NCBI GenBank assembly: GCA_032622095.1
Contig: CP136062.1
Span: 228,174,578-228,238,577, forward strand
Length of the DNA stretch: 64,000 nt
Origin: Siphonodentalium dalli
Taxonomy: Eukaryota > Mollusca > Scaphopoda > Gadilida > Siphonodentaliidae
Reading direction: 5' to 3'
The position numbers and the translations under genes are program-made. A model generated the notes under the pieces. The model did not search any database and was not told the DNA's origin. It was given only the letters and a program-made list of their open reading frames with translations. Below are positions 9,579 through 59,639 of this stretch, one piece after another (position 1 is the first letter of the stretch; the number at the start of each line of letters is the position of its first letter).

Positions 9579-9707
9579 TCTAAAAAAGATGGATGCAAAT
9601 CTATCATTTATTTATATTGGCCTTAAATAGGAAAAAGGTAACAAAAATTATCTTCCAATCTTCAGACTAATCTTTACTTTTTTATTTCAGAATCTGAAGT
9701 CAACACA

Positions 9708-9897
9708 ATGGCTAAACTTCATGGTGGAATTGGTTTACCTATATTTAGTGAAAAATCTTACGAATTCTACAAAGATCCAGTTGCATTCCTGAAGAAAGGA
9801 ATTGAACAAAATAATTGCCCAATCTTTGTCGCCAGATTCCTCAACAGGCCAACAGCATTTGTATGCAACTACTCAGGAGTTAAAGAAGTATTGGAAG
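9708..9897 (+). CDS. P450 exon 1 (residues 1-63, phase 1 out)
   Basis: The exon starts after the acceptor TTTTTATTTCAG (AG at 9689-9690), leaving 17 nt before ATG at 9708. It ends before GTGAGA. It encodes the N-terminal region, beginning MAKLHGGIGLPIFSEKSYEF, which resembles the 'GxGLPxxG' opening and helix A/beta-1 segment of soluble P450s. The 17 nt upstream of ATG read S-E-V-N-T in frame with no stop, so Met9708 could be internal to a longer protein whose first exon lies further upstream. At minimum a 5' UTR intron exists. Confidence 0.82.
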
Positions 9898-12800
9898 GTG
9901 AGAATTAATACATGTATAGTTGTATATGGATATTTGGAAACCTGTTTAGAGATTTATTCTTTCCATTATGAGGCATATTGTCTATCTCCATGACATCACA
10001 CCAGCAAAGTTTTATCTTTTTAAAGTCCACAAAAGTATAATTTTCACACCTTGGAAAAGTTGGCATGCCATAATGAGTGATGCTTCTTGCAGAGGGTTGA
10101 CTGTCATGACTCATGGTCACCAAATGGGAACAGAAATATTAAAGTGATGTCAAACACTCCGGTATGGTGATCAAATAGAAATGGAGAATAGTCTTGTTCA
10201 AAGTAGTTATATTTACAAATATTGTATCTAGATTGACAACACACACCGTCATTCTTATATATTAATTAAATGTAGTGACTGTCGATGATGACATCATTTT
10301 CATTAGTTTATCGGCGATAGATGTATCCTGAATCGAGTAGAAAATATTTACAATTGAGCGTAGTTTAGACGATGTTTTCTATGGAGTGATAAGGTCGATT
10401 TGCTTGAGATTTACAGCGATGCTAGTAGAATGCTACATTCCTCCAGTTGGCATAGAAGCTCAATACTAACTTATCAGTTTCTCCCGATTAAGTACATAAT
10501 ATGTCTTTAACAATAGTATATATAGAGGATCTCACATGAGTTTCTATTTTATACGGAATTTATCAACCGAGTTCACTAAATTCGATTTGAGCCGAGGTTT
10601 ACCGAGGCTCAAATAGAATTTAGAGGACGAGGTTGATAAATTACGTATAAAATAGGACGAGTGTGAGATACCTTTTATCACATGATCAAATAAACCCGAA
10701 GCAACTCGAAATATTCATCGAAAACAACAATCATAAACTACAGCGATCGCAAGTTATTTGAAGAACGCCGTGACGTCATCGCACGTGCTGATATTAAACG
10801 TGTCTATTACCGATAATTATGAAACTGCTTTTATGGCCAAATTATGTGATAAAACTAGTAGACTACATGTAACTGGGGCCAGCATGATCATTTGCAGCTT
10901 CCATGAATAACCTGCTTCCAAACAACACGTCAGCTCAAAATGATTTTTGCATACCTCCCTCAAAAATCTCCCGGATTGACATTTTCAAAACATAACATGT
11001 CTGGTCACCAACCAAACACGAGGCTAAACTTCCTGGGCTAAATTCAGTTATAAATGTTTCACATGATGTTACTTTTTTACGAAGATTTCATATCATCATG
11101 AACAGATGAACTCAAAGTTGCATATCTTTACTCGTATTTAAATTCGTGCAGTACTATTTACAACTGAGTCCGACTTCTGAATTTATGCTAAACCACAGGG
11201 AAAAAAGGAGCTATGTTAACGCTTCCATAGGGAAGCCTCACATATAAGAGAATATATTGGCCTAACAATATTTACATTCACCTTGTTAGCCAGTTTATTC
11301 TCTTGTATATGCGAGGCTCCTATGGATCCTGCTACATCACGAACCTCATGAAAGCTTTACTTAGTTACATACAGTAATGCTCTAATTAATCGACCTCTTA
11401 ACCAAAGCAGAATTATGGGTAACTTTTCAGGATTTAGTCGGAAATATGGCTTGTTGCCATTCATCGGAAAGCTCTCCACGAGAGCTTTCCGATGAATGGC
11501 AACAAGCCATATTTCCGACTAAATCCTGAAAAGTTACCCATAATTCTGCTTTGGTTAAGAGGTCGATTAATTAGAGCATTATACTGTACATAATGGAAGG
11601 TTGGAATGAATAGGCAATTATATTTAGATGTGGGCAACCAATCTCAACGCGTTTATTCATATGGTACAATGTACATGTATGTAAAGTGTTATATCATGCA
11701 TTTTGAGTCTGGTGGGGTGTCAGGGGTGGTTTGAAAAGGGGGCATTGGTGGGGTCATCATACAACACCCATCGTCAAGGTACTGAGAAGTGACATGGTAG
11801 CCTTATTTGGACCTATCAGGGTGGTGACCATTTTGGATTATGGTGGGGTGTTGGATGGGGGTCGAAAGGGTGTAATGTGGCCACCCTTTGTTTGACTGAA
11901 TTCAGTTAAGAGGGCTGGGCAATGACATGGATTCCCTATTTGGACCCATCTGAGCGGTGGCTATTTTGGATCAAGGTTGGTGGTGTTTCGAAAGGGTGTC
12001 TTGGGGGTTCAAATAAGTATTTCGCCCCTTGGCCAATTTCTGACAATGCCCCCCAAGACCCCCTTTTGAACCATCAACAAACACTCTACCGATCCACTCT
12101 GCTCGAGAGGTCTAGATCTCTTGGTCGCAGTCTTTAGACGCTTTGTGTGATCGCTGAAGTTAAGCAATGTCAAGCTTGGTCAGTCCTTGGATGGGTGACC
12201 AGCTGGTGATTCCAGTGCGGCCAACTTTCAGTGCGACTCACTTCTCTCTCTCTCGTTCTGTTACATATGGTTAAATGTAATCACAATGGGTTTCTGTAGA
12301 TATCTAAAAACTGTTGAAATATGAATAACAATACTTCTTCATCTTTACAGATGCAGACCACTGCATGGACTTCGGTTATAAAACTTTGATGGAAGAAATA
12401 TACGGTGAAAATATCCTCTTTACAGATGGTGAGTAAGAAATTTCAATGATCAAGAGTTACGTAATAATTATTGTTGGTATCTAAGTTGTTGTTTGAAATT
12501 ATTCTCAAAATCCACTGATAAATACATATACCATCAGTTCCATCACTGTAACAGACAAGAATGGAAAGCTGACCAATCAATGAGGTACCCAGTAGGTGAA
12601 TTTAGGGACGCTATCCCGCATGGTGGGCTTGCATCACCAAATTCTCCCTCTGAAAACTTCATTCTGCTTAGTCCTTTGACACACTATTTCCACTGAAGAT
12701 ATAACAATATTATCACCTCCAAAAAAAGAAAGTCCCCCTTAATATATTTGGTTATATTTTATGAGATATTGGATGGATTTGTACGAAACTTTAAGCAAAT

Positions 12801-15800
12801 GTTTAGTGGTATCTGAGACACAACCTATGTGTGAGGCACCATCTCGTGAGTTATGTTATGGCCAACTGAGCACGAATAGAATGGAAGAGGGGTGCTTTTC
12901 AAAAGTTGCAAAACACTGACGTTGAGTAGACAGTCACTCCAGTGTTCCATTGTTCACAAAAGTTGTTACTGGCTGTAAATGTGGTCCAAAAGTGACAATG
13001 TGAGTCCACGATAACATGCGTGTGATCTTCGGGACAGCTTGAGCCCACTGCATACCCAGGCCTTTCACTGAAAATCCAAAATGATTTGCCGGTTTTTGTG
13101 ATTTTTATCGCTATGAATTCCCAACAACACCAAATTCGAAAATCTGATGAGTCACCATCCAAGCCAAAGGCTATAATTATAAGCAAGGTTTGGTTATGAT
13201 GTTACAATCTCGAATGGCGACTCGTCAGTCTCATGCAGAAGCTCTCCATAGTTGTTTATATAGAGTTTTTATAGACTCGTCATATATTTTTTTCAGTATT
13301 TTCTGTTAGAAATATTGGATTTGAAAAATAAAAATGAATTTTTGTAGACTATGTTTTCCAGATTTTGAGAAAGAGTTAAAAATAAAAACCCTCCCTCCCT
13401 CATCCCATTGAGATCTAATTGCCTGAGAACACAGACATTTTATTTTAATGGTGATATTGTAAGTAGTTTGTCAAAGTTCAATTGAGCAGTACCATAATTA
13501 ATTTACAATATGTCATTTATTCCAGGAGAGGTTGCCCATCATTTGAGAGATTCATTACACACGCTATTCACTCCAGAATCCATCGAGTCGTACCGTCCTG
13601 TCATACAGAGGTAACAAGTCTGAGTTTAATGTGTCTGTCATTTGCAGAATGAGGTCCCCAGAGGTGACGCTATTCCGCATAGTGTGATAGCATCACCAAA
13701 CTCACCCTCTGGGGACCTCATTATGCATGGCCTCATCTGCTATGGGAGACATGGACTCAGATTGAAGTTCCCAAATGGTGAATATTGTGATGTACACCCA
13801 TTGGGAACCTCGATTATGTAATGTGTGGTCTGGCAATTTGGGGATATAGAGAAACTAAACTAAAACAGAAATAGATTCTATGTGAAGAAGATTCTATAGA
13901 AATTTGATAATAAAGAAACTTTCCAGAGAAGATGAGGCCTAAGGAGAATGAGGTCCCCAGAGGGTGAATTTAGTGATGCGGGATAGCGTCACTAAATTCA
14001 CCCTCTGGGGGCCTTATTCTGCAAATGACATGCACAGGGATTTTTTTAGGTGTCCTGACTCCTCAGGGTCCAGTAAACGGCCCCATTACCAATGGGAAAA
14101 AAGCACCTTTATTCTCAATTTTCAACCACCAAATTCCCAATTGCAGGCAGGTATATAATACCATCTGGTTTATTGAATAATTATAATTTTTTTTCTGAGT
14201 TTTGTACACTCAGTCGATCGATAAACGGCTGAAAACCCGTAGTAAATCGGCGATATCGGGAACATGCCCGCATCGTGTAATTGCAACCTAACTATTAGCT
14301 TAACATGTGAATTACCTCCCCTCTACCAGTCAGCGCATTTATGAAAGAGGGATGATAACTCTAAATAAATTGCTGATTTAAAACACGTGTACAGTAAATA
14401 TAAATATAAATGTTTCGACCAACACATCCTCGGAAAGTCTTAGTGTCCCCATTAAGTAGTATTTAATATGTGTACACAGCAAGGACTTGCATAAAGTTTA
14501 AAACAACTTGTCAATTTAATTCACCCTGAACTGTATTCAGTAAACTAATTGCGTAGGTGATGTGAAAACAGCATTTCACATTGACACCGCTGCCTGGATT
14601 AACATGAAAGATGCGTGATGTTACATAAATTATTCTTAGCTGTGTCGCCGATAAAAGGCAAATTTGAGGCACACCATGTGTGGTTGCTCCACTACGTGTC
14701 ACGTACGATTCATATTAAAGGGACACTTTGATTATTGCGACATAACCAAGATGCGGGCCCCGTTGGTTCAAAGTGCCCGGATGAAGATAATTAATCGAGT
14801 GTGCTTCTCACAGTACGAGCTAACTGCATGGCCTCCTATAGCCTGATACCGGAGTACGCTGTGTATGTCTCTTTGGAAAGCAGACGAAATTCATAAACGA
14901 TGTACATCTGTTAGGAATTTCGTCGGCTTTTCAAAGAGACATAGACAGGCTATTTGGCCATGCGTTTGTCACAACAGACCTGTTTCTGGCGTGCATGCAT
15001 AATTCGTGTTTTATTGATAGTAGTGATGAAAAGAGTAACGGCTTGTATTAATCGAATAATATAAATGAAGTTAGTTTGCCCTATCGTAATCAGGATGGAC
15101 TTTATTTTACCTATATACGGACTGTTCATTCTTGAAAGTGCAGCCTATACTCGTATAGTAAAACTGGGAATTATGCTTTCAAGATTCATATCAAGGCGAC
15201 GTCCAGTCGCGGGATGTTGGTCAGTTTCTGTCCCCGAGGCCAGGGGCGTACACCAGCTATGGCGGGGTTGTTGACGGGGTGTCACGCGTGCAAATATATA
15301 CATGTAGTGACAATAGCACTAACCTTTACAAATAAAAATAAATTGAGTTCGTGTGTCTGTCCGGAAAAAGGCGACAAAACGACTTAACCCCTCTGAAAAT
15401 GTGCACATAGGGTCATATCATGCACGTAACCCGGGGATTAAGGGCGCTAATAATGTGTATGACTTTGGCTATATATAGGCGATCAAACGGAGGGGCAGAT
15501 CGGCAGATTAAAATAAAAAAATAAAAATTGTTTCTTGAATTTGGGAATAGATTTTTACAACTTGTTTTGCTTCATCCTATTTTATGGATGTTAGTGTTGA
15601 AGTCTATTATAATATTTAAGGAAGGGGCAGACCTGTCAACAAATTTGGTATTTTGAAAAAAAAAATGATTTTGAAGCCATTTTCACCAAGCTTGTGTTAT
15701 TTCTTTAAAATGGGGAATGTGACCCTAAAAATAATATAATAAAAAAGAAATCCCGTACCCCCAGGGACCCCTGTGTCTGATATGGGAACATGTCTCTATT

Positions 15801-18800: not shown

Positions 18801-21800
18801 AACATGCAATCACACACTGTAACACTACTACATATGATTTGTGAGTGAATGCTATTAACTGTACAGAGGGCCATATTATGTTGGGAACAAATGTAATTTG
18901 AGTTTGTATCTCCACTATAAAAAAATAATAAAAACATATTTCTCAACTACTAATTTTTCTACAAATTAGTTATTGATTGTGATTCACAGTTGTTGGAAAC
19001 TTGTCAAAAAACCCCTACTTATTAATATAATTGATATAACTATATTAATAAGTAGGGGTGGTGACATCTCTTTTCGGTTTTTTTGACAAGTTTCCAACAA
19101 CTGTGGTTTATAGTAAACAAGTTTGTGTTAGATTAAAAACTTTTAATTGGAATAAATACATCTTGCACATGTTATTTGTGGTTTAATAACACATGAACAG
19201 CCATCAATTGTGATACATACAGTTCAAACGAAAGGTGACCCTTTACTGCCTGAATTGACCCCTTATTGCCTGGATTTCGTGCTATCTTTGATCGCGTATT
19301 TTAAAAAGAAAGAGCAATATTTGTGAACAATACATAAGATGTATGATAGAGCTAGGATTTATGAACAAAATGACATATAAATTTTTATCCATTGTACTTG
19401 CATACAGACAGGTGCAGCACAAACATAAAAAGTGACCCTTTACTGCCTGAATGACTGTATCGACGGATGGAGGGAGTTTTTTGGTATTTATTGTGGTGGT
19501 GTTTTTTACATGGCTAATCCTGTGTTGAAGTGCCATTCTGATGAAGCAACCCTTCTAAAACTTTATTCGGCACAAAATCTTTTCATTTGGCAAAAGTAAA
19601 TTTGGTCCAGCGTTGACTCTGGCCAGCAACCTTGATGCCATCTGTTGTTATACTCCCCTCTGTCCTCCCGGGCATCTGTTGTTGTGCATGTTTTTGTCAT
19701 CGGTTCTGTTTGATGGACTTTCACAAATGATACTCAATATTTTGTGCAACCAGAAAAGTTACTAATCAAACTGCATACAAGCCTTGAAATACTGTGTCTG
19801 TCATTTGCAGAATGAGGTCACCAGAGGGAGAATTTAGTGATGCTACCCCGCATAGCGGGCTAGCATCACCAAATTCACCCTCTGGGGACCTCATTCTGCT
19901 GAGGTGTAAGCAGAATGAGGTCCCCAGAGGGTGAATTTGGTGATGCTAGCCCGCTATACAGGGTAGCATCACTAAATTCACCCTCTGGGGACCTCATTCT
20001 GCAAATGACAGACATGCTATTTCAAGGCTTGACTGCATAACTTATTGGTTATTATTGGTATTCTATTGTAGGGTCGTTCATGACAACATAAATAAATTGA
20101 AGTCTGATGCAGTATGTGGATACTCAATATTTAAGCGACTTGCCACAGAGGTCTGCCTCAGTTTATTTCTAGGACTCAATTTTGAGGAGGCCGCTGATCT
20201 ATCTGACAAAATTGTCTCCCTTACGACTACACATTGGCATGGTAAGTCTCTCAAATCCTACTGAGTTCATTGAAGCTCATTAACCCTTTACCCAACAGAA
20301 GGGCCCTGTGCCAATGCATTCTCTTATATATGCGAGTCGACCATAGGTCGCCTCGCATATATAAGAGAATGCATTGGCTTAACGCATTAAAAATTATAAA
20401 ATTGTTAAAGAATGTAAGAAAAAATGGTAAAAAGTGTTAACAAATTATATTTTTTAGGCCAATGCATTCTCTTATATATGCGAGGCGACCTATGGTCGAC
20501 TCGCATATATAAGAGAATGCATTGGCACAGGGCATAACTATAACCATCACAATGTGGTCAATGAGCCGGTTCCAATGATATCCATATTTGTATGGTTTTA
20601 TTGAGACAGACCCAAGATAATTTAGGCTGTTGCAGCTTTATTTGGCCGGTTTTGGCCGGTTTGTTGGGTAAAGGGTTAACCTGTAGGCAAACATACTATG
20701 AATGTGGACTGGGCTGTTAACAAGGGCTGTCCAGTCCTCTGCGGTCTGGCTCTCATGCCTGGATCAGTTCAAAGTGGTCCGGTCCACCTTTATATGAATA
20801 AATTACTTAGTTAACACAGCATATCACTTGATGACATTGAAATGAGGTTCGTTAATACTGTCTGTAGCACACACTGTCCCATTACATATAATTGTCACAC
20901 TGCAATAGTACCATGTCTATATGTAATTTAAATATAATATAATTGGAATAGTTGTACCCCTCATGTCACACAAGCATATTAAATGTTGTTGAAAAAATTA
21001 GATTTTGTTCAAAATAGCCACATATATATATACTCAGTTCTTATGTAATACTGATAGGGTATATTTTAATGTGTAACTTTGTATGCATATTTTTCCACTC
21101 CTTTGAATATATCCCAACAACAAGATACAACTGCTATCAACTGTCACCGACACCAAGACAATCACTGCCGGAACTATGCTTAGTTCTGCTCAGTGGAGAT
21201 TATGGTGGTGTTGGACCAGTCCAAGGCGGTGGTCCAGTCCAGTTCACATCCCTAACACATACACATATTAATTCCAGATATAAAGAATATTTACACTTTT
21301 TGTTTGAATACCGAAATATCTCACAAGTGTCTGTTTCTTTCTAGACATTAATGAGATGTTTCATGTAATCAAACAAAAAACTGTAAATATTTTTATTATA
21401 TGCTGTTATATGCGCCTTATTAATGATCAACATTTCTAAACTATGTGGAATTTTCACTTTTAAAAGTATAACAAAATTAACAATACATATACTCGAAAAG
21501 AAATGACTGGTTACAGTGAAATAACGAAAGCTACAGTGAAATAAAAGAGGTACATACGATGATCTACGTTATTTTCGTTATTTTCATTTTTCATTCACTG
21601 ATGTTTTATTTAATGACAAAGGCATTAATCTGTGGATCGGGTACTGGTATGTATCAGAGGGGAAATATGCACGGGAACATGACCCTGAAAAGATACCCAC
21701 TGCCCCTCTTGTGGAAACCATGAAACTGTTAACCCTTTCATGATGGGAGATTCCTGAATTTTTTACGAAAACCCTGTGCCAATGCATTCTCTTATATATG

Positions 21801-24800
21801 CGAGTCGACCATATTTTTAAATTGCTAAAAAAAAATTTAAAAATGTAAGAAAATATGAAAAAAAAGTTAAAAATTGTTAAAGAATGTACGAAATGATGAT
21901 AAAAATTGTAAAAGAATTTAAAAAAAAATGATAAAGAATGTAAGAAAAAATTATAAAAAATTATAAAATTGTTAAGAATATAAGAAACAATTATAAAAAT
22001 TTTAAAGAATATTAGAAAAAATATTAAAAATTGTTATAGAATATAAGAAAAAATTATAACAAAAAATTATAAAAGAATGTAAGGCGACACCAATTTTTAA
22101 TTCTGGTTTACGAACACCTCCTACAACTTTTTTTCCATTTCATGAAAAAAAATGAAACTTTTTTCTCCCAAATTTTGTTTACATGTGTACTGATTTTCAT
22201 TTGCTGTCGCATCCGGTTCTGCTTATGATCATTTACAGATCCATATTTTCATGTATTTCATGACAAGAAATGTCTCGTTTGGTTCAGAATTTCATTCAAA
22301 AACATTTTTTCACAATTTTTGTAAAATTTATGTAAAATTCCACGATTTACTTGATGTAATACTGGGGGGAACAATTTTTTTTATTTTTATTTTTTTCCCT
22401 CCTGCATCTACTTTTTTTCTCCCCACATGTTCGTAAACCAGACTTAAAAATTGGTGTCGCCTAAGAAAAAATTGTAAAAAAATTATAAAATTGTTAAAGA
22501 ATGTGAGAAAAATTTATAAAAATAGGTCGCCTCGCATATATACGAGAATGCATTGGCACAGGGTCTTTAATGTTGCACCAGCATAGTTCCCTTCATGAAA
22601 CTGTTAATACTTATATATTATTTATATAAAGTTAATGGATATTCATCTTGCATAGTTAGTTTTATTTTACCCCATGCACTTCCAATGACAAACTGAACAT
22701 CCGTTAATTACTTTTATTATGTCAACTCTTGCAATTAGCCAATCAGCGTGGATATATAGTGACGGTATATGAACCCATATTATGTCGGTGACCTAATATG
22801 AAATCAATATTAGGTGCTTATCCGCCATCTTGTTTTTTCAGAAATTCTGTCGCCTCGGGAATATTTTTGTTGTATTTTGGCGCCAAGAAAGGGGATATCT
22901 GTCGGACATCATTTTCTGTGAATTTAAAGACATAGTACCATGTCCCAAAACCTGCATGCGATATATTTGAGGAATTCTAAAGACTCATAAATTAACTATC
23001 AAACTCAACAAGTTGTCCTACTTCTGGTAATTAGCCATTGACTCAATGCGTTGAAGTTCAATGCCCATGACGGGTCACTGTGACATTACATAAGTTAATG
23101 GCCATAGACGACACATTTATCTTATCAAATTACATTAAATTACAGTGACGATTAATCAAAGGGATATGCTGGAATTTGTCCACTGACATAATAAATACGT
23201 TACGAGATGCTTAGTGATCGGATATGGTGTCATGTGAGATTCAGCGAGATCAATATTAGGCTCGGCCCACAGCCTAGCCTAATATTGATCTCACTTCGCC
23301 TCACATGACACCATATCCGACCACTAAGCGTCTCGTAACTTATAATATTCACACTCAATCAGCGTGAAAGTTGGTGAGTCATCTTCTATGACACATTGTA
23401 GGCCATGGTCCAAATTTGGGCTACATTGGACGCATGGTTGAAAAGTTATAAATGAGCCAAAAGTGTTACACACACAAACAGGCATACATACAGGCGATGG
23501 GTTTTATAGATATAGATATTAAATATCAACAAATCATTTCTTCGAAGTTTCTGCTGAATTACACAGTGCGTTAATTTCCCCATGAAACAAAAATGCTAAA
23601 ACTAACTTAGACTTAGTAGTGAGAAATTTGGAGACTTTTGGAACATGAAGTTGAGGCGCTATGAAAACATTTGAATATGGAAGAAAATACAAATTATGGC
23701 GAATTGGTGATAGTTTTGTGCATGTGGAAATTCACATCTCTTTTATTGGTATAATATGTGTCCCTCTCTCCATTACAGGTATAATCAGTGTTCCTCTCTC
23801 CATTACAGGTATAATCAGTGTTCCTCTCTCCATTAAAATACCTCTGCCTGGTATTGTTGATGCATCGACATACAGGAAAGCATTAGATGCAAAGGTTGGT
23901 TGATATTAATATAGGAATCAGCTTGTCGGTTCTTCTGTCGAGCTGTAGACACAACTTTGCAGAGTTTTTATTCCTACATTTTTCTACAAGTTTGTTTTGA
24001 AACTTGGCACATATTTTTCCGCTAAGGCAAGCCCTTCAACTGAACTATGTGGATTATATCTCCGGCCTTGTGTCAATCAGGAGAGTTAAAATTTATTGCC
24101 GTTTATTTCCTAATCCCGGTCAATCCATGCTCGGATTTGTCTTGCATACGAGATCTTCGGCTTATGGACTGTCAATAAGGTCAGTCGACCGCATAAGTAG
24201 ATAAAATTAATTATAATTTTAAAAATTATATATTTAGTACCATGGGAACCTGTGCACTACGATTATGAGGTCCGGCCGACTTTTTTTTGGTGAAATTATC
24301 CCCCTTTTTCGACTTAGAGATCCCCTTTTTTCGACTTAGAAAATGTTCTCAAGATGCATAATTTCGTCCGTATTTGTAGTCCTACATTTTTTCTGTCAAT
24401 ATTATGAAACTTGGCATAGATAGTTAGTGCCATGGGAACCTGTGCACCTGTGATAATGATGTGCATCCAACTTTTTTGTGGAGTTATCCCCCTTTTTCGA
24501 CTTAAAATGTTCGCAGCATACAGAGCACTGGACTCGTTCCTAGGGTTCAGCATATTACGCTCCGGCAAGTAGCGACTAATAAGTGCCCCCATACTGTTTA
24601 TGGGGATTGCGTTGTTGATATATATAGTATCACTGGAAATAACCCAGGTGACAAGCACCTTGGGCATAGGAAAGCACTACATTTACTTCATTATGAGCTC
24701 ATGACGTCATATCCGATAATACTAGGGGGCAGAATTCCACCTCCTAACATGGTGGTACTTACTCAGGCTTTCCGCCAGGTTTTTGGGGAAAGGGTCCTGT

Positions 24801-30800: not shown

Positions 30801-33800
30801 AACTGTCAATCAGTTCATTAATAAAATTGCACAGATCCCACAAGAGCCAGCGCATGGTAAGTTTCTGCTCATTGGAAATTTTCCCCAGCAAATATGAGAC
30901 CGAACATATTAGTAAATTCGCAAGATATCGAGTAATTATTTTAGCATGTTTTGAATTGTTGTCAGCCGTATCATCAACGATAAAGAGTGTTTGTGTTTCA
31001 ATGCCCATTTACTAGTACGATGAATATTAAACAGCGGTTTGAAAACTTGCTTTATCAAAAATCTCAGCATTTGGTGACAAATCGGAATGGATATGAAGAA
31101 CGGGGTTTGAGAACGGGGGGGGGGGGGGGTAATATGTCAGGGACTTGGACAGAAGCCTTCCTTTTTTGAGGGGTTAAATTGCAACCACCCGTGAACCAAT
31201 CTGTTTTCCCAACTTGACCAAGTTTCATCTGGTCTCCCATTCGATGCTGAGTTTGAAATCCAACACAATACCATTTAATAGCTATAATATAGTCTTTGTA
31301 GAAAATAATATAATGTACTCTAAATATTACATATCTGTTGGGAACCGAAACTATCCAGACGATCTCAGAAAGATTTTGCCTGAAATTCAACTTATGATAT
31401 TGAAAATTCCAAATCTTGAAATTAGCTCACCGCATAATAATGACCAAAACGATACTCATTAGAAATTTGGAAATGTAAACTATCGAAATGATCTCAAACA
31501 GATTTTGCCTAAGATGTTCAACTTATAAAGTTATTGAAAATGTAAAATGTTGAAATTATCTGGGGGGGGGGGGGGGGTAATACCTCGACCTCTATCGCCA
31601 CATCCATGTTGCGATGACCCTAATTATTTGTTCTAACCCACAACCTCCTAGAGTGGGCAATCTTACTGTCAGGTCAGGGACAATACGGGTAAGGTTGTCC
31701 CGCCCCATTAACTTTGACCAAAATGTTAGGCATTTCATGACTGACACGACATTAATTTAAGTTATTGAAAATTCCAAAATGTTGAAAAATTTGAAAAATA
31801 TTGGGGAGGGGTGGTAACACCTCAATGTTCAAACCCCTGTCGCCACATCCATTTTTGCACACATTACCATATTTATTCCAACCCACATTGTCACAGATAT
31901 TAAATTCTTACTGTCAGGGGCGTGAGGACAACGGGAGTGGGGGGTTGACAACAGCATGTTGATAGCAGACCGCCTTTCTGCCAAACTGCTCTAAATGTAG
32001 GCCTACTGGTTAGAACAACACACTATTTCAGTTGGTAGCTTGGTGAGCCCCAAGCCAAGTAATTAATTGATATGAATACCTCAGACAAAATATGGGATGG
32101 GTAATATTTGTTTATTGGTAAAAAATGCCCCATATGTATCGCCAAAATTATTAAAAATTTCCAAAAGTTGTGCATGTCGCCACCCCCTGCATGCCGTCAC
32201 GTCCCACATATCCCCAAAAAGTTAAATTACCCGCCCAATAATATCTAATCATGTCTATTATTGGTGGGGGGGGGGGGTGTGTGTTCAAATTTATGTTTTA
32301 GGGACACGCGGCATTTAATACAGTGACAACGTCCATTATGTAGTCATTTGTCGTTTGTGGGGGATGCATCAATACACAAATTGACCCCAACCAAATACAT
32401 AAATCCTAATATTACTCAACGTTACGACTATAGGCCCACACTACAGCTGAAATAATTATTGTGACACAGTGTGACAACGTAATAACTTCCTTCCAACAGC
32501 TCCAGTCATGTGAACATTGACACAACGTATCAATATGACGTGATTCTTTGACGTAAACAATGTAACAAGTTGAAAATTTCATGTCTGACACATCATGACT
32601 TGGTAACTTTAAGTACGTGTTTTCATTGTCTGATTTTCCAACAATCAGTAGGTATATTTTTGTTTACACCTCCGGTATCATATTTTTAAAACTTTTAGAC
32701 TTTAGTAAAAATTGTTGTCTGACATGAACACCATTTTGGAAATGTTCCAGTCTTATTCAGTTTGGAAATTGCCAACAGTTGAAAAGCCTGGGTGTCGGTT
32801 GGAAAGTTTCAATGCAAAGCGGGGGGGGGGGGGGGTGCAAATTGAAACTCGCGAAGGAGTTTGGTGTCTGGTTCAAGAGGAAATTCAATGTTGACACACC
32901 ATAACAAAGACCATGTAGCCACGTCACTGATTCGGAGACCATAAATAGGTACATGTACATATTTCAGAAACTAAAAACTTCCCCGGGAATCATACTCGAA
33001 AGAGCAGATAGACCCTTTCACACCTCAATATAAGCCCCCCTCCGATTAAGTATGTACTGCATGGTAATCACACAAGAATGGCCTGGTTGACTGTGGTTGA
33101 CAGAATATTGATACATTGGCGCCATATGCTCTGGTAAGTACTTTCCATTGTCATTTCCAGCTGTTTTAAATTTTTCGCAGAGAAGTGAAACGAACGCTCT
33201 TTATTTATAACATATATCAGGAATATATAGACTAACACGGAACGCTCCGTGTAAATAGCTGATTTTTGGTTGGGACCCAAACATCGTGTTCAAACTTGTA
33301 TTTGTTATGACTTCAATGCATCTTTTTGTGACATGTATTTATCGACCTATTTCGACACGGGAAACAATTCACAAGAGAATATTATTAGGTGTATTTTGGA
33401 GCGCAAACCGACAAGTGGATTCAAGGTACCTGTTGGAAAATACCGAATTAAGGGGAGGTTGTTCGAACTCCATGCATAAATCAATCTCCTACATAACAGG
33501 GCGTCAGACACCGTAGCGATGGGACTGAACTCTGGTTTGCAGCTTGAGCATTTTATACAACGAAACGGGTGGTGCAATCGTAAATTCCTATTCTGGTAGT
33601 ACACCCCCCACCCAACAGCTATAAGCATAATAGCCTATTATAGGGTATACGACTGAAAGTGGAACGGTATCCACTGTCGTAGGCTGAACTTAATTATCCA
33701 TGGAAATCCATGACAGGGACGTGGCTATATGGGTTTCAGCGTTGGGGAGGGGTGCATCCACCTTGGAATTTTCAACTGCACCCCCCCCCCCCCCCTTTGG

Positions 33801-36800
33801 GGTTTGATTTCACCAAAAGTTACTGGCCCCTCACAGCCTGGATGTTAGCATTATTCTAAATGGATCAGAAGTATTGTTGCCACAACCAGAAGAGGAACGG
33901 AATACACTGAGAACATTTTGAGATCCGAACCTGAAAATAGCAAACTCCTAACATCTAGACTGGCCTCAAAAATTCCAATTGTTGGAAATTTCCAACCTGA
34001 GACCCCCCCCCCCCCCACCCTAAGGTCGTAAAATTTCCAACTGATGCCATTTCAGTCAATTTTTTTTTAACAAAAGTAGGACAATGTGCAAATGATGTTC
34101 CATAAACAATTAATAATTGTTGGAAAATCAAACTACGAGAACAATCTCAACCTATAATATTGTTGGTGTGACCGTGCGAAAGTTCCAATTAATGTTGTGT
34201 CATGTATGAAATATCCAACTGTTGACAATTTTGACCAAAGTTGTGGTGGGGTGGGGGATGCGAGACACACGTGCAACACCCCTGCCGCCATGTCCCTAAA
34301 TCTATGCATTATCACACATGGATCGTGAAATTTAGATAGTAATTAGAATGACATTTTCTTCCTTATACAGTCGGATGCCATCACACGAAACTGACATAAA
34401 TTTATTTGTTTTCATTTCTGACAATTGAAGGGTTAAACTTCAAATTCAAACTTTAAGTTGGCTGTGGAGGAAATGAATCCGACGACGCACGCTTATCGTT
34501 GAAATTCCAAGTTATTCGGCATGATATTCTCAACTAAAGTACTTACCGGTACTTCTTCGGGTCCCTATAGCTGGTAGTGGTGTTCCGTGGTGCATTATCC
34601 AAATAATAATCCATTAAACCGAGAAGCTCACTCAGAACACAAATGCAAGTTCAGTCAATAAACCAAAGCGTTATTTGAAAAAGAAACACGCGACCAGTTA
34701 AGAATGACGTTAAAATGACGCTACGACGTAATCGACCGATTTCTCCACACTATGACCAACGTTGGGCCATCGTTGGTCCAACGTCGACATCTAACGCACC
34801 TACTAACCTCACATATCGCCTAGTGCGTTACGTTTCCAACGTCGGGCCAACGTAGCCTTGTTTGAAACGTGCAAAATCTGACGCATGTCGACGTTGCGCC
34901 ATCGTTGTACCAACCACAAAATCCGACGTTGCGCCAACGTAATTATTCCAACAAGTCGACGTTGGGCCATCGTCGTACCAACCACAAAAGCCGACGTTGG
35001 GCCAACGTAATTATTCCAACGCAAGTCGACGTTGGGCCATCGTCGTACCAACCACAAAAGCTGACGTTGGGCCAACGTAATTATTCCAACGCAAGTCGAC
35101 GTCGGGCCATCGTCGTACCAACCACAAAAGCCGACGTTGAGCCAACGTAATTATTCCAACGTTGGCCCAACGTACGTGTGCTATCTGGGTATAAGAGAAT
35201 TTACTGGCTAGAATTGCATTGGTACAGGATTTTCAAAAAAATTCAAGAAGCTCCCATCGGAATGGTTAAATATGAATATGTTTTTTTTTTCAAGATGTTT
35301 AATGTGTCATATCATGCCCAATAAATTAGAAAATATAGTGCTGAGGATTGTACTTACCAATTTCCAGATTAATTTGTATATACATGTATCTTAGTGGCAG
35401 CAGGATATTTTCTCAGAATCTCAGGCAGAATGTTTGATAAACATGCGGATTTCTGAGAGTTATTTCACAACTTTTAAAATTAGCAGGCTCAGCTATCTTG
35501 AAGCCATTACAGTTCTAGTCCAATGAATCTCAACTAAAGAAATCACAAGTTTATAAGACTGCTAAGAACATAAGTGTAAAAAAACTGAAACAACAAACTT
35601 CAATGAGCAGTGAATATAGACTAGCAGTTACAATTCAAATGTTGTTGAGTACAATAATCCCAGGATGCATTTATGCAGCCTCTATCTGGTTGGACCAACA
35701 TATGGCAGCCATATGTCAGGTCTATGGCAGTCTCAGGAGAGAAGGTCTCCTAACCATTAATATGACTTTGGTGAAGGCTATAACATTAGAATGTTAAAAA
35801 TTCTCCGGTCTGAGGTTATCGAATAAATTCTTAATCTCCAGTAATGATGGCTAGTGAATATAATTCCATGTTGTTAGCCATCGACTAACCATCGCCTTAG
35901 CCATCACCAGAAATTCTTCCTGATTGGATGGCTACCTTAGCCATCACACCCCTTCTTATTCTTCATGAGTGCTAATATAACTATAGTGATTGTTTATCTT
36001 AGCCATCATTGATCTCTGATGGCTAAGCAAGGGCTTAGGGATGGCTTAATAAGCCATTCTGTTCGGTAAGGGTGGGGACCTCATTCAGCAAATGACAGGC
36101 ACACTAAACTCTGGCTTACTGACAGGCACACTAAACTCTGGCTTACTGACAGGCACACTAAACTCTGGCTTACTTGTAGTGGGCAAATGTGCGAAAAAAA
36201 AGTCTGTGAAAACAGTAGAAGGACATGGAGTAATAGAAAAACTTTGTTCTTATATTCATTACTAGTAATGATAGTTCTCCATAAATGAAATTTGGCGTGT
36301 TGAAACCATTGTTCTGCAAATGACAGACACACAGTTTGCTAGAACTGATACAATCATTGTGATATTGTTACAGGAGTCACTCCTTCACATAATAGGTGAG
36401 AAGAGGAGAGACGGCAGCTCTGATTTCTTCAAGAAAATGGAGAACGTATTCCCTGACTCCGAATCACGAATCAACAATCACCTCCTACTCTTTACCTCAG
36501 CTCTCGTGCCTAAGGCTCTGGCATCCATCCTTACTTCATTCGTACTCAACACACCAGACAAAGATTGGGTGAGTAATGTTAACGTACCAGACAAAGATTG
36601 GGTGAGTAAAGTTAACGTACCAGACAAAGATTGGGTGAGTAATGTTAACGTACCAGACAAAGATTGGGTGAGTAATGTTAACGTACCAGACAAAGATTGG
36701 GTGAGTAATGTTAACGTACCAGACAAAGATTGGGTGAGTAATGTTAACGTACCAGACAAAGATTGGGTGAGTAATGTTAACGTACCAGACAAAGATTGGG

Positions 36801-39800
36801 TGAGTAATGTTAACGTACCAGACAAAGATTGGGTGAGTAATGTTAACGTACCAGACAAAGATGGGGTGAGTAATGTTAACGTACCAGACAAAGATGGGGT
36901 GAGTAATGTTAACGTACCAGACAAAGATGGGGTGAGTAATGTTAACGTACCAGACAAAGATTGGGTGAGTAATGTTAACGTACCAGACAAAGATGGGGTG
37001 AGTAATGTTAACGTACCAGACAAAGATTGGGTGAGTAATGTTAACATACCAGACAAAGATGGGGTGAGTAATGTTAACGTACCAGACAAAGATGGGGTGA
37101 GTAATGTTAATGTACCAGACAAAGATGGGGTGAGTAATGTTAACGTACCAGACAAAGATTGGGTGAGTAATGTTAACGTACCAGACAAAGATGGGGTGAG
37201 TAATGTTAACGTACCAGACAAAGATGGGGTGAGTAATGTTAACGTACCAGACAAAGATGGGGTGAGTAATGTTAACGTACCAGACAAAGATGGGGTGAGT
37301 AATGTTAACGTACCAGACAAAGATGGGGTGAGTAATGTTAACGTACCAGACAAAGATGGGGTGAGTAAAGTTAACGTACCAGACAAAGATTGGGTGAGTA
37401 ATGTTAACGTACCAGACAAAGATTGGGTGAGTAATGTTAACGTACCAGACAAAGATGGGGTGAGTAAAGTTAACGTACCAGACAAAGATTGGGTGAGTAA
37501 TGTTAACGTACCAGACAAAGATGGGGTGAGTAATGTTAACGTACCAGACAAAGATTGGGTGAGTAATGTTAACGTACCAGACAAAGATTGGGTGAGTTAT
37601 GTTAACGTACCGGACAAAGATTGGGTGAGTAAAGTTAAAGATATATAATCCAATTCAACTACCCTAAATTACTATTTCTTCAACTTCGGGTGGGTAAAAA
37701 ATATATGACCAGTGCACCAGTGGCGATCGCAAAAATAATTTCAAAATTTAAAACAGTGAAAAGTCTTGCCATCAACAAGAATACAGTAGGTCTATGTTTT
37801 GATAGTTGACATGCGGATACATACATATACTTATTTACAAATTGGTAATCATGTTTTTTTCGTGCAACTAAACATGTTATATGGCACCACGCTGGTTACA
37901 CATTGAAATACTATGTTTTACATTTGTGATAACATGTGTGGGGAATTCAAATTTGAATTAGGAATCACCATATATGGAAGTTGTAAACAACACTTGCTCA
38001 TCGTTCAAGCTGCCAAGAAAGACCGTTATTAAGGCCTTTTTTGGCAAATATGATTTTGTGATTGGTGGAGTTGTGAGTATTTAATGGTAATAAGCTAATT
38101 AAATATGCAATTAATGTGGTCCTAGCCCCTTCCGATCCTTCAAAAATTCGATTTTACAGAACGCGGTACAAAATTTTATAAAAAATCACAATTGGGATTC
38201 TAGTCATATTTCAACAAGAAATGAAAAGAACATTGTAATGTAAGGGAGGCATATCATTGCCTATGAATATTCCAACTCTCTGGAACCAAAAATCTTAGCT
38301 TGGCTCAAAATGGCTGCGAAAATGGCCGCCAAAATATGGAAAATGGTAAATATTGCACCAGGGTGTCCTGCAATCGCTTACAAGTTGTGGTTGGTGTATA
38401 CAATTGGCTAATCTGTATTCTATACATTGCATACTAACATGTCTGATGCACCACGGATAATTTTTACTATTGTCACCACTGACATCACCAGAAATATTGT
38501 ATTTTTCTCTCACAATCTTGACAAAAATATTGGCAAAAATTAACTTTTCAGGGTTCGACCATTTGTTCAAGTAAAAAGCAACTATCTTTGGTATCAAAGG
38601 TCTTTATTTTTTTGGTCTATCTTAAATGTGTCACACTACGGTGTTTATAGACTAAATTGCACAAGATGGCTTCCAAAATGGCAACCAAATTTGTAAAAAG
38701 TTAACATATCCCGAACATTATTCTCTGCGTTGTCCGAAAAAGGTAGGAAATTGTGACTCACTTGGTTATTTTACTTGTTAGTTAATTAACTGACAGCTAC
38801 GTTCTATTATGTTTGTCCCAGTTCCGTGTGGGGCATGACAAATTCATTTTAAATTTGCAGTATGGAATTTTGCGGAGAACCTCTTTTATGATTCTGGCCA
38901 TATTATTGTAAGGAAATGGGCAGAACTTTGAGACGGAACTGAGATGAACCATGACATGTGGGTATTCTGGCCCATTATGGTAACAAATTATCAACTGGAA
39001 ACAGGGTGAAAGCCAAGATGGCAGCCAGGGAGTTACTCTATGATCATAGATGAGGATAATAGGTATACATGGAGTTATTGTATGGTCATGAATGATGTGT
39101 GGGTGTGTAGGGAGTGCCTTGTTTGTAACGGTGGGTGGTATATTTATATATGTTGTGGATGTGTTATCATTGGTGGTGTATGGGGAGTAGATGTATGATC
39201 ATGGATGGCTTGTATGAGTATGGCAATTATGGAACTTATGAGTGGTCGTATGTGTGGGTATTGGTATATCTGGAAGGGCTCACCATTGGTGATGTGCATA
39301 TGTATACCTGGATTGACTCTATGGTCATGGGTATGGCGAATACGTATACATGCAGTGGCTGTATGGTCCACAGTGAGGTGAATATGTATACAATGAGTGA
39401 CCATATGGTCGTGAATGTAGTGAATATGTATACATAGAGTGACTATATGGTCATGTGTTGGTGTAGGTGTATACCTGGTGTTCATGCATGGTGACTCGTG
39501 GCTGTATCATCATTTGTGGTATGTCTGGGCATAACCAAGTATGTCTGTATGATCAGGTGTACGTGTATAAAGTGGGTAACTATGTTGTCATTTGTGTGGT
39601 GTTTATGTATGGAGTGACTGGGGTAATGGGTGGGTTGTACGTGTGTACCTTGGGTGGCTATCGCTTTCCACAATAACTCAAGGATATGTTAATCAATAGA
39701 GAGGTCATGTCAGAGAGTCATATCACGGAAAGCGATAGCCACCCATTATCACACAGTCATTACATATATACATAAACACCACAGACATAACATATGTTGA

Positions 39801-45900: not shown

Positions 45901-48900
45901 AGCATCCATGTTATCAACGAATTACGCGCAGTGACATAATTATATTGGCAAAAATATGCCCAATAATGCATCCCGAAAAAAGAAGGAAACAATTTCAATT
46001 TTTGCATAGTTCAACCATTGTATTTTCTCAAATGATACAGTCGATTTTGAATTTTCAACAATCGTAGTTCATTGCGACATTCTTCCAATATGGATTATGT
46101 ATGGATATTATTACTGGTTGGTTTTCAATGACAATAAGTCCACATTATGTCTTTAATTGATCACATTCTGTTTCAGAGACTTGAAAAAAATCTGGAGCAT
46201 GAAATAGAGTGCACCCTTCTAGAGGTGAGAAGACTGTATCCTCCATTTATTGGTGGTCGTCGACTGGTAACGAAGGTACGTCACCACAATCTATATATCC
46301 AAGTCTGTCTCTGACATTTGCAGATTGAGGGTCCTAGAGGGTGAATTTAGTGACCCTATTCTACACAGAGGGCTAGCATCACCAAATTCACCCTCTAGGT
46401 ACCTCATTCTACTTATGCCTCATCTTCTGGGAAGTGTCTATAGTTTGGGGATCTCATTCTGCTTAGGCCTCGTCTTCTGGGAAGTGTATATAGTCTCAAA
46501 ATAGCATTGTTTTTAGTTACTTTTTCCCCTCTGGGAAGTTTCTATATCCACTAGTTTGCAGAAGATATAATACATAATCAAGGTGACTAATGATTTTAGA
46601 GTTATCCATCTTCATCCACAATTTGGTCCGAGACGTCGGCTTGATGAATATTTGCCAGGGCACCAAAAATAACATATCTCGGGAAATAACAAATTTCAGA
46701 AATTGATATCTGATCACTCCTGAGCTTTGATGGGTGGGTTCTTTTTTTACCCCCGAAGCCAGAGAAATAGTAATTTGGGAGTGTTAATTCAGACTAAGCC
46801 TTTTAATTGTTCTGAGCAGTATAATTTCAGTTTTATCTCCTTGAATGAGACATGGAGGATTATTTTTACGAGGCACTAGCCGGGTTTAAATAATCCTCAC
46901 ATCTCATGGGAGGAGAAAAACTTACGCTACTCAGAACAGTTAACTGTATTGTTTATTATATTTGATATACCTGTTTGTTATGACCCAGACCACAATGCAA
47001 CACCTAATACATTTTTAAAGCTACAACATCACCAGTCATTTCTTTTAATTAACAGATTGATGCAAAGATATGATGTCATGATACAGTGCTGAGAGTAGGA
47101 TACCATCTTGAGAGTGGAATAACATCAAAAGTTCATGAAATAGAGAGTAATCAATTGGTTCCGAGAATTACGTTGAACAATTCACCAGAGGCGAGAGATG
47201 TCAGTAAGAAACGAGTGTGCGTTAGCGCACAAGTTTCTTACCTAAAGTCTCTCCCTCGAGTGAATTATTTATTGATTACTCTATTTATTACAATTCTGCA
47301 TCAATTTCATTCACCAAATATGACTAAACACCCAGAATTAATGTGGAGAAAGATCAACCATAGAAAATTCAGTCTAGATCAGTAAACGACGTAATGTCAA
47401 TGATGTCACAGGAAATGACATAATTCACTAGTGACATTACCATTTTTAATTAAGAGTGTTTTTAATGAAAATCGCACATATGAGTGTCATAAAATATAAT
47501 AATTAAGTTATCATTTCTATTGCAGAACAGCACCTTAGCAGGTTATCATATACCTAGTGGTCATGCTGTCATGTACTCTACATATCTCGCACACCGGGAT
47601 CCAAGTATATTCGAGGATCCAGAAGAGTTCAAACCTGATAGATGGAAGGATAGGTAAACTTATTATTAAACCTTTCTATATAAATGGATTCTTGATTCAC
47701 TTATGAAAGTATATATTGGAACAGTCTATTATTTCTTTGGAGGGCTGTTCAGGAAATAAAAGCAGACGACAGACAGCCAAAAAGCTAATACAGTGCAGAA
47801 GGATTCATATTCTTTGGTGGGAAATGTTCAGTTAATAAGTTTGTTATAAGGTCAACAAATTGCCGTTTGTTGAACTTATTATCTGGAAATTTCCTATTCA
47901 TTTTTAGTTCAACATGACAAGTTTAAGCTATTGCCATGGGTTGGCCTCCATCATCAGGACATCCGTGTGTCCGTCTACAATTTTCTCTAGCACACCCTAC
48001 AGGCCATATCCCTCATTCAAACATCACCAAAATTCATAGATGGGAGCGATCATTTTTTTCCAAAATTTGCTAATAAACATGGCCACCAGCAGCCATCTTA
48101 GATTTAACATTTGAATCCATTGGCACATCCTGCAGCCACATTTATTGGAGAAATCTTTTGAAAAAAACAGGCATGTTTAGGTTCACCTCTTGATGGGATC
48201 TATCAAATTTTAACTGATTTTCAATGATAAACATGACCACCGGCAGCCATCTTAGATATTACTCTTTGCATGACTAAATCCTTTGGCACACCCTACTGAC
48301 CACATCCCTCATCCAATCATCACCAAACTTAACATTATTCTTCCGGGTGACCACTAGATGGGAGCCATACAAAATATGGCCACCAGTGGCCATCTTGGAT
48401 TTTAATCTTTGAATGACTAAATCCTTTTCGGCACACCCTGCAGGCCACATCCTTCATCCAATTATGGATCTTTGGGGTGAACTCTAGATGGGAGCCATAC
48501 ATTTTTACCGAAATTCTTTGAAAAACATTGCCATTTGTCACCAAACTGCATTATGGATCTTTTGGGTGACCACTAGATGAGAGCCATGGGTTGCCAAGCT
48601 TGAAATAGCATGTCTGTAATTTGTAGAATGAGGTCCCCAGAGGGTGAATTTAGTTACCCTATTCCACATGGTTGGCTAGCATCACCACATTCACCCTCTG
48701 GGAACCTCATTCTGCTGAGGCCTCAACCTCTATGGGATACCAAGGATCAGATTGAAGTTCCTCAGTTGAAGTTGATGTTCACCAATTAGTCACCTCGATT
48801 ATGAATTTTTTCTTCTGCAAATTAGGGGATATAGAAACTGAACAGAAGGGAAAAAGTAACTAAAAACAATGTTAATTTGAGACTGGAGATACTTCCCAGA

Positions 48901-51900
48901 AGATGAGACCTAACCAAATGAGGTCCCCAATGACATCCGTCATCAGTCTGTGTGGCTGTGTCCATCAACAATTTCCTTAAGCACTCCCTACAGGCACGAT
49001 CTCTCATCTGATCATTACCAAACTTCATATGGATCTTCAGGGTGACCTCTAGATGGGAGCCATCAATTTTTTCTGAAATTTGTTAAAAAGCAAGGCCGCC
49101 AGCTGTCATCATGTTCTTTGCCAGCATTTATCGGAATAATGTTTTGGAAATATACAGGCATGTTTAGGATCACTTCTAGATGATAGCTATCATATTTGAA
49201 TGATTTTAAGCTCTATTTTACTTTGCAAAGTTTGAGCTATTACCATGAGTTGGTGTCCGTTGTCCGTCCGTCCATCAACAATTTCCTTTGGCTCACCCTA
49301 CCAGCCGCATCCCTCATCCGATCATCACCAAACTTCATGTGGATCTTGGGGGTGACCTCTGGATGGGAGCCATCTATTTTTTCTGAAATTTGTTTAAAAA
49401 ACATGGTCGCCATTTTGAATTACACAAATTCATCGGGACAATCTGCAGCCCGCATTTATTGGAGAAATGTTTTGAAAATTTACAGGCATGTTAAGGATAA
49501 AGTTTTAGCGATTTTCGTTGAAAAACATGGACGTCGGTAGCCATCTTGGATTTTACTCTTTGCATGACTAAATCCTTTGGCTCAACCTCCAGGCCACATC
49601 CCTCATCCGATCATCACCAAACTTTGTATGGATCTTCGGGTCGACCTCTGGATGGGAGCCATCGATTTTTTCTGAAATTTGGTAAAATACATTGCCATAG
49701 CATCCATCTTCGATTTCAAATTTGTATCTATCAGCTCAGCCCGCATCCCATTTGTTTTGAAAATTTGCAGGCATGTTTAGGATCACCTCTAAATGGGAGC
49801 CATCAAATTTGAACAATGTTCGATGAAAAATATGGCTGCCTTTATTGGATTGGATTGCTCTACTATAAGTGAACCACTCGTCAATGAGTAAAGAAAGGGT
49901 TAATAAGGGTTAATAAGGGAACTACTCGTCAATGAGTAAAGAAAGGGTTAATAAGGGAACCACTCGTCAATGAGTATTCAGGGAAGAAAGAGTTAATAAG
50001 GGAACCACTCGTCAATGAGTATTCAGTAAAGAAAGAGTTAATAAGGGAACCACTCGTCAATGAGTATTCAGTAAAGAAAGAGTTAATAAGGGAACCACTC
50101 GTCAATGAGTATTCAGGGAAGAAAGAGTTAATAAGTGAACCACTCGTCAATGAGTATTCAGTAAAGAAAGAGTTAATAAGGGAACTACTCGTCAATGAGT
50201 ATTCAGGGAAGAAAGGGTTAATAAGTGAACCACTCGTCAATGAGTATTCAGTAAAGAAAGAGTTAATAAGGGAACTACTTGTCAATGAGTATTCAGTAAA
50301 GAAAGAGTTAATAAGGGAACTACTCGTCAATGAGTATTCAGTAAAGAAAGAGTTAATAAGGGAACTACTCGTCAATAAGTTTTCAGTAAAGAAAGGGGTA
50401 AATTGCATCTAAGAGACTTACTGCGAATTATGATAGAAATAAATCACTTTAATATAGTTTTATAGACAAATAATAGACCCCATCTTCAGTTTTATCTGCG
50501 TTTTATTCATAAAATAGCTATTTGTAGTATTTAACCCTTCCATGACTGAAGCTTACTGAATTTTTTCGAAAACCATCTGCCAGTGCATTCTCTTGAATTT
50601 GCAAGTCTCCCAGGGAGCCTCACATATACATATATAGGAGAATGCACTGGCACATGATCTTTAATGCTGCACCAGTGCAACTCCCGTCATGAAAGGGTTT
50701 AATCATGATTTATATATATTATGTTGTTGTAATTGTGACCCGGTAGAGACATCAAATCCAGTCGGAAGTCGGGATTTTTTTACCCTGTGCCAATGCATTC
50801 TCTTATATATGCGAGTCGACCATAGGTCGCCTCGCATATATAAGAGAATGCATTGGCCTAACAATTTTTTACAATTTTAATAATTTTTTCTTGTATTCTT
50901 TAACAATTTTATAATTTCACCCATACAGAGCCCCAGACAAACATGAGCAGACGACACTCTTCCATGTGCTTCTATATATGTGTGGGGCTCCCTGCAGGGT
51001 AATGGATGTTTTTTTATTTTATGTCCTAAAAATTGTAAGAAACATTTATTTAAAAAACATGATAAAAAATTGTTAGGCCAATGCATTCTCTTATATATGT
51101 GAGGCGACCTATGGTCGACTCGCATATATAAGAGAATGCATTGGCACAGGGTAAAAAAAATCCCGACTTCCGATTGGATTGATATGGCGGGTCACATATG
51201 TCATTGTCAATCCCTAGAACTACTGATAACAATTTTTAAAATATAGGTAGGTCTGCATATCATCAAGATACAACAACAACATTTCTTCAAAATACACTTT
51301 AGTTATCAGAATTGATTAATTGCAGCAAAATAATGCTAACCACTGTCAACTATGGTATAAAATTTCCCAAAACGTGTTATTTACCAACATTTTGTTCAAC
51401 GAAATATGGCCATATTATCACTTGAGTATCACAAAAGTTTGCCGTATTTCCACTTGATTTTAGAGTTATCCATCTTATTCCGCAATTTTTTTCGAAGACC
51501 GTCTGTTTGATGTCTGTTTTCTGGGCCAAATAATTGTACATCTCCAGAAATAATAAACTTCAAAAATTGATATCTGATGACTCTGAGCTTTGATGGGTCG
51601 GTCCCTCGACTTGAATCAAATAATTTTTACCCCCGAATCCAAATAAATAGTAATTGAGGGGCGCTTGATCGGATTTATATGCATCTTTAAGCTGTTTTCC
51701 AGGTCTGATTTGACAGAGCTCTTCAGTTTTGGAGGAGCAAAAAGGCGTTGCCAAGGCATACCTCTTGTCGACCTGATACTGAAGGTATGGTGGAAACAAA
51801 CACTTTTGTCCAGTAGTTTTCAAACGAGTCCGTTGCTTTGAAATTAGATTACAGACAATAACACTAAGGCGTTCAGATGGCTGTGATATACCACCCATAT

Positions 51901-55942: not shown

Positions 55943-56287
55943 TGACAAGAATGATAGTTGTTTCATATTAGTGAATACTTCAGATCATTCCAATCAAAAT
56001 CTCATATTATAACTGTGATATATTAATATTATTTATTTGACGTATACATTAACATTTTTTATTACATTCCTACATGTGTGATTTACCTTGATGTCTCGAG
56101 TGATTATAAATGATTATTTCGCTAGTGAATTATGTCACTTTAACTAACATGTTATCTATATACTAGTATGCCTGCTATCAAAATTTCTGCGTCATGGCTA
56201 TAATGGTGGTACTATTCAGATGTTTGTACAACCAACATACGTGCCTCGCCTGAATTCCATCAATTGATTACTCTCTATATGGATCTA

Positions 56288-57650: not shown

Positions 57651-57651
57651 G

Positions 57652-57845
57652 AACATTCTTTACTGAATACTCATTGATGAGTAGTTCCCTTATTAACTCT
57701 TTCTTTACTGAATACTCATTGATGAGTAGTTCCCTTATTAACTCTTTCTTTACTGAATACTCATTGATGAGTAGTTCCCTTATTGACAGGAATGTAGCAT
57801 TCTTTACTGAATACTTATTGATGAGTAGTTCCCTTATTGACATGT
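57652..57845. repeat. same 45-bp minisatellite, opposite orientation
   Basis: About four units of TTCTTTACTGAATACTCATT + GATGAGTAGTTCCCTTATTAACTC, the complement of the 49863-50400 unit, downstream of the P450 stop. The centre is the palindrome ACTCATTGATGAGT. Confidence 0.85.
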
Positions 57846-57905
57846 TGGAAATTTCATGCCTTACACAACATCAATTGGAAATTTAATTCTAGAAATAAAG
57901 CTGGC

Positions 57906-59578: not shown

Positions 59579-59639
59579 ATAATACCCTGGAAACTATATA
59601 AAACATGTTTAGGAAGAGATAGACCATCTTTGACTAACA

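Follow-up and report, generated by a model that had tools for sequence, protein, structure and literature searches.

A minisatellite of 33 in-frame copies across the exon 6 splice donor of a cytochrome P450 gene from the scaphopod Siphonodentalium dalli

Results and Discussion

The splice donor of exon 6 is multiplied in a P450 gene

The stretch of the Siphonodentalium dalli genome that we analyzed here (64 kb of contig CP136062.1, referred to as the window) carries a cytochrome P450 gene whose exon 6 splice donor has become part of a minisatellite. A 33-bp unit, in which the final 15 coding bases of exon 6 are followed by the initial 18 bases of the adjoining intron, stands in 33 consecutive copies on the forward strand. 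This array is a striking example of a boundary-spanning minisatellite, and we regard it as most probably neutral, a large and in-frame representative of a type of structure for which lancelets provide known cases and one human gene a similar one. With a probability of roughly 0.75, we consider it a so-called mirage that stems from ordinary repeat turnover, that is in frame by luck, and from which mainly the first donor or the first few donors are used.

The array had originally been predicted from the sequence as a perfect 33-bp register, and both Tandem Repeats Finder (TRF; 36553-37638, period 33, 32.9 copies, 97% matches, 0 indels, score 2011) and a unit-by-unit listing bear this out; the latter found all 33 copies to be free of indels and also confirmed the composition of the unit. 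GTGAGT is present in 33 of the 33 copies, and the frame of exon 6 remains open through all of them, as had been claimed, so that the first stop codon is met only behind the array when none of its donors is used. Stops occur all along the array in both of the remaining forward frames. In the open frame, the repeat translates as the 11-residue block PDKDWVSNVNV. Copy 1 is fused to the body of exon 6, and copy 33 (CCGGACAAAGATTGG in its exon part, GTGAGTAAAGTTAAAGAT in its intron part) continues into unique intron sequence, which is why its intron part deviates from the consensus that the other copies share. Since the first copy joins the exon body and the last one the unique intron, the array is the tandem multiplication of a single exon-intron junction. 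The first 32 copies differ in five alignment columns, and the variants are mostly amino-acid-changing (W/G, N/K, N/Y, and V/I, vs. two silent ones); GATTGG is found in 18 units and GATGGG in 15. When we searched the nine contigs of the 2.23-Gb genome with the array sequence, in a search that ignores very common words, the sole match was the locus itself. As a whole, the array is not a chance match.

The host gene looks intact

The assignment of the array to the sixth exon of a P450 gene also held. According to our ten-exon model (9691 to 55942; Table 1), the host gene looks complete and intact: every intron is of the GT-AG type, the phases agree, and the joined frame, with exon 6 ending at the first donor and exon 5 starting at the inner of its two acceptors, spans 421 residues without a stop. 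The Pfam P450 profile (PF00067) matches the 416 residues that follow from the first ATG with 115 bits (cut-off 22.8; E 5.1e-33). We located exons 1 and 10 with a profile built from five bacterial P450s, used with and without the window exons already recognized, and read exons 2-5 from the sequence by eye; the latter are supported by their phases and by the match of the joined protein to the bacterial profile (residues 6-212, 8.3e-20; residues 279-412). Exon 5 taken alone gives a weak profile match and is backed by its phase and by the joined protein. The N-terminus of the model is uncertain. Pfam returned nothing for two translated parts of the window, 21375-36374 (three frames) and 51701-63999 (a single frame).

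Both the ExxR motif (EVRR) and the heme-ligand cysteine (FSFGGAKRRCQG) are present and aligned with those of the five bacterial P450s. With the I-helix encoded by exon 6 and the K-helix motif by exon 7, the array lies between these two helices, as the original prediction had it. The I-helix of classical P450 monooxygenases carries the acid-alcohol motif (A/G)Gx(D/E)T; in the alignment with the bacterial P450s, the corresponding stretch reads SALVPKALAS and does not contain it. Since, in addition, about 20 residues found in front of the K-helix of the bacterial proteins are missing, the protein may not be a classical monooxygenase. A search for a close paralogue that would display the ancestral junction found none and gave only two matches, which are exons 6 and 7 of the window; related loci were likewise absent from the prokaryote contigs. 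The mollusc haemocyanin domain, used as a taxon marker, gave no match, and the controls gave none either.

Boundary-spanning arrays recur in this genome

We ran TRF on a sample of 96 other exons from the same genome, a chosen subset of the matches to four protein families (58 of 93 for P450s, 16 of 135 for kinases, 11 of 19 for short-chain dehydrogenases, and 11 of 13 for aldehyde dehydrogenases). Near-complete single-exon P450s and a tandem kinase cluster were deliberately excluded, and the other matches were omitted arbitrarily. In one cluster of the kinase search (G000:C2:149.83-150.60 Mb), 83 reading frames of 279-282 residues are listed, 67 of them with an equal score. Many of the sampled P450 exons are paralogues and are hence not independent; a few matches have internal stops and might represent pseudogenes or overrun the exon, and one (L045) has no upstream flank. 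Junctions were inspected visually, and only for those matches that overlapped an array or had one within 120-150 bp.

Boundary-spanning arrays were detected at five of the 96 exons (Table 1), i.e., at 1 of 58 P450, 0 of 16 kinase, 1 of 11 short-chain dehydrogenase, and 3 of 11 aldehyde dehydrogenase exons. Ten further arrays are positioned near but not over a match and, as far as can be judged, outside the junction. We did not count a 28-bp x 27 array in front of a kinase exon (L056:1-761), which ends 8 bp before the acceptor and whose unit does not include the junction; many of its units carry CAG followed by GT. Upstream of the P450 exon at L043, about 22 units are found (L043:1150-1850), 21 of which contain the acceptor-like TTTCCGGCAG or a close variant (TTTCCG[AG][CT]AG). 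At the aldehyde dehydrogenase exon L079, there are four acceptors, the last three spaced by 102 bp. A second array is present in the P450 gene of the window itself, where exon 5 is preceded by two similar acceptors, 30 bp apart and each in frame.

The array at the donor of the short-chain dehydrogenase exon L070 can be viewed as a natural control for the P450 array. GGTATGT is kept in 8 of its 10 units, and the GT is lost in the other two. It is out of frame, and reading through the first donor leads to a TAA after four codons. Given this stop and the two copies devoid of GT, the use of a later donor would be expected to truncate the protein. Its ten copies, out of frame and cut off by a stop, indicate that donor arrays arise in this genome without any coding function.

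Arrays with at least 2.4 copies cover 4.65% of the exon flanks and 0.53% of the coding matches. Three of the five boundary arrays of the sample pass this copy threshold, so that 3 of up to 192 junctions (an upper bound) reside in such arrays, vs. 8.9 expected from the coverage of the flanks. Hence, arrays at junctions are tolerated and avoided rather than attracted; there is no enrichment.

Table 1. Boundary-spanning arrays and exons of the P450 gene model in the window, and boundary-spanning arrays at sampled exons elsewhere in the genome.
Feature	Position	Strand	Unit x copies	Remarks
Donor-spanning minisatellite	36554..37642	+	33 bp x 33	15 exonic and 18 intronic bases; GTGAGT in each copy
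First in-frame stop if no array donor is used	37646..37648	+		TAA
Acceptor-spanning array	23748..23835	+	30 bp x 2.9	over exon 5 start; two acceptors CTCTCTCCATTACAG, each followed by GT
Exon 1	9691..9897	+		first ATG 9708; a further exon could lie upstream
Exon 2	12351..12428	+		found by eye
Exon 3	13526..13610	+		found by eye
Exon 4	20072..20241	+		found by eye
Exon 5	23809..23894	+		found by eye; from inner acceptor (outer acceptor: from 23779, 10 more residues)
Exon 6	36374..36568	+		up to first donor; I-helix; ends NTPDKDW, phase 0
Exon 7	46177..46275	+		K-helix ExxR (EVRR)
Exon 8	47526..47653	+		ends PEEFKPDRWKD
Exon 9	51703..51784	+		heme-binding FSFGGAKRRCQG
Exon 10	55805..55942	+		includes stop codon
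L043			32 bp x 21.5	acceptor of P450 exon
L070	L070:106-455		35 bp x 10	donor of short-chain dehydrogenase exon
L079			102 bp x 3.6	acceptor of aldehyde dehydrogenase exon
L080			147 bp x 2.3	donor; diverged duplication
L083			64 bp x 2	acceptor; two-copy duplication

The array is explicable without selection

The P450 array looks designed, with a unit that preserves the frame and a GTGAGT that is kept in every copy, but these features are weak evidence. A unit length has a one-in-three prior of being divisible by three, and four of the nine donors of the P450 gene are followed by 18 bases without a stop in their own frame; taken together, about one donor array in seven is in frame by luck. 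If the variable columns of the array were placed at random, they would all miss the 6-bp motif with a chance of 0.34 (five columns) or 0.27 (six), and the conservation of GTGAGT is thus not significant. We also rejected an enrichment of the donor motif in arrays, since GTGAGT triples spaced by 15-45 bp number 36,271 genome-wide vs. 34,966 for the reversed motif, in a count of triples on which large satellites weigh heavily. Finally, two of the 19 junctions of the P450 gene lie inside arrays; the chance of at least two is 0.62 at the 10.8% coverage of the gene span and 0.22 when the lower coverage seen in the exon sample is applied. By these four tests, the array is explicable without selection.

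The original prediction had named selection against stops or indels as one possible reason for the perfect register, and this proposal did not stand: the unit variants mostly replace residues, the conservation of GTGAGT is not significant, and a comparable donor array (L070) does not keep the frame and runs into a stop. There is no need to invoke selection on either GTGAGT or the encoded peptide. Recent expansion, the other reason put forward, is accepted as a sufficient explanation.

Comparison with known boundary repeats

Mirages, minisatellite-like repeats of exon-intron boundaries, have been described in lancelets, with units of 10-72 bp (Adh3) or about 150 bp (PMC3087553). The examples are Adh3, the globin genes BflGb6 and BflGb9, and TnC, with similar repeats in PGBD5 (PMC3087553; PMC3902484). 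Mirages vary among haplotypes (BflGb6 has 6 units in one and 3 in another), are somatically unstable at Adh3, and have been proposed as a route to new introns (PMC3087553). The mirages of the Adh, TnC, and globin genes are reported to yield no aberrant mRNAs (PMC3087553; PMC3902484). As in lancelets, the unit of the P450 array spans a splice site and its copies carry the splice signal; in both genomes, donors as well as acceptors are affected, and the unit sizes overlap with those of Adh3. Such arrays also recur within the S. dalli genome, at five of the 96 sampled exons and at exon 5 of the P450 gene. Judged by its boundary-spanning unit, the splice signals in its copies, and this recurrence, the P450 array fits the description of a lancelet mirage. 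Unlike BflGb6 with its 6 and 3 copies, it has 33 copies, all donors intact, in one open frame. We found no boundary array with this many in-frame donors described in the open-access literature that was searched. By analogy, the copy number of the P450 array is likely to be polymorphic.

The minisatellite of the human IFI6 (6-16) gene reportedly has a 12-bp unit in about 26 copies, and its isoforms are said to differ by four residues. It shares with the P450 array a donor in each unit, a unit length divisible by three, and the lack of an in-frame stop. The two genes are unrelated, and donor use has been reported for IFI6, whereas the donors of the P450 array are predicted from the sequence. The IFI6 repeat supplies extra donors (Turri et al., 1995, Nucleic Acids Res 23:1854, as cited in PMC4526556). 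In both genes, exon length can thereby vary in principle. Tandem repeats have also been found to create or alter introns in human genes, where they extend exons or introns or turn into introns themselves (PMC2812944). There, as in the P450 gene, minisatellites alter gene structure and splice sites lie within repeats; unlike in those cases, it is an existing donor that has been multiplied here.

Donor choice and alternative explanations

Predicted pairing with U1 makes the exon 6 donor the strongest of the nine donors of the P450 gene (-12.0 kcal/mol), and all copies in the array share this value except copy 32 (-10.4 kcal/mol). The array donors have a mean predicted accessibility of 0.043, comparable to or higher than the values for the other donors of the gene (0.000-0.055). 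In the scenario that we favor, tandem duplication of a 33-bp segment over the exon 6 donor would have been followed by expansion through ordinary minisatellite turnover, in a genome where such arrays abound; that the unit preserves the frame and contains no stop would be luck. For splicing to exon 7, the spliceosome would mainly use the first donor or the first few, and the remaining copies would leave with the intron; in the likeliest case, almost every transcript uses the first donor. We favor the first donors because exon 6 then stays near 195 nt between long introns, because lancelet mirages are reported without aberrant mRNAs, and because, for IFI6, the reported extra donors are two downstream units (PMC4526556).

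Several points weigh against this reading. Since the copies other than copy 32 share the same U1 pairing and a similarly low accessibility, they are indistinguishable by donor strength, and the sequence alone cannot pick the donor. Equal tandem donors often favor the intron-proximal one, which would favor the last copies. In contrast to L070, neither the frame nor any of the 33 donors is broken. Moreover, unit lengths divisible by three occur in four of the seven boundary arrays (33, 30, 102, and 147 bp, vs. 32, 35, and 64 bp), compared to 2.3 expected, although these are too few to weigh.

Alternatively, several donors might be used productively, yielding P450s with varying numbers of 11-residue blocks at the turn between the I- and J-helices, and these numbers would change with the length of the array. 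The intact, in-frame donors, the 33-bp unit, and a stop that lies only past the array would suit such a switch, and the two in-frame acceptors of exon 5 could raise the number of products to up to 66. A human precedent exists in IFI6, for which two downstream repeat units as donors and three mRNA species are reported (PMC4526556). We nonetheless consider this switch unlikely: an in-frame state is expected in about one array of seven, the unit variants mostly replace residues, the sister donor array L070 is non-productive, and the insert would fall at the start of the J-helix in a conserved fold. A structure prediction for the repeat part of the read-through protein returned a confident beta-solenoid, which we set aside since it matches an artefact of AlphaFold 2 reported for repeat proteins (PMC11795689). 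At least as improbable is a length-tunable ladder of donors, in which a fast-mutating minisatellite would set the mix of 11-residue inserts, possibly differently between individuals or cells, in combination with the acceptor switch at exon 5. The isoforms of 0 to 32 blocks originally envisaged are possible but not the likeliest outcome, since lancelet arrays are reported not to disturb splicing and for IFI6 only two downstream units are reported as extra donors.

Quite improbable, in our view, is that the array impairs the splicing of exon 6, with competing U1 sites causing skipping, intron retention, or the use of distant donors and a lower output from a locus that is drifting. Use of the last donor would generate an exon of 1,251 nt, which is long for an internal exon, and eight units are predicted to fold at -69 kcal/mol (a value without a shuffle control). 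Yet the other exons are all intact and open and show no sign of decay, the array donors are predicted to be about as accessible as those elsewhere in the gene or more so, and the lancelet mirages are reported to be harmless. That the copy number is an assembly artefact is very improbable: we are dealing with a single assembly, and tandem arrays are error-prone, but variant units are scattered through the array, no long block is seen by eye to recur exactly, the array ends cleanly, and 1.1 kb is short for long reads.

If, as we favor, the first of these 33 near-identical donors always wins, the gene would serve as a clean natural experiment on the ranking of equal donors by the spliceosome, with exon definition set against intron proximity. 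If several donors are used, a minisatellite would directly encode the length of an enzyme. With about 1 in 20 sampled exons bearing a boundary array, S. dalli has a good genome for studying the origin and persistence of mirages and perhaps the birth of introns.

Other repeats of the window

Tandem repeats found by TRF make up about 11% of the 64-kb window. Within introns of the P450 gene, there are a 54-bp x 5.1 array at 42224 and a 45-bp x 10.2 array at 49935; the unit of another 45-bp array, at 57656, approximates the reverse complement of the unit at 49935.

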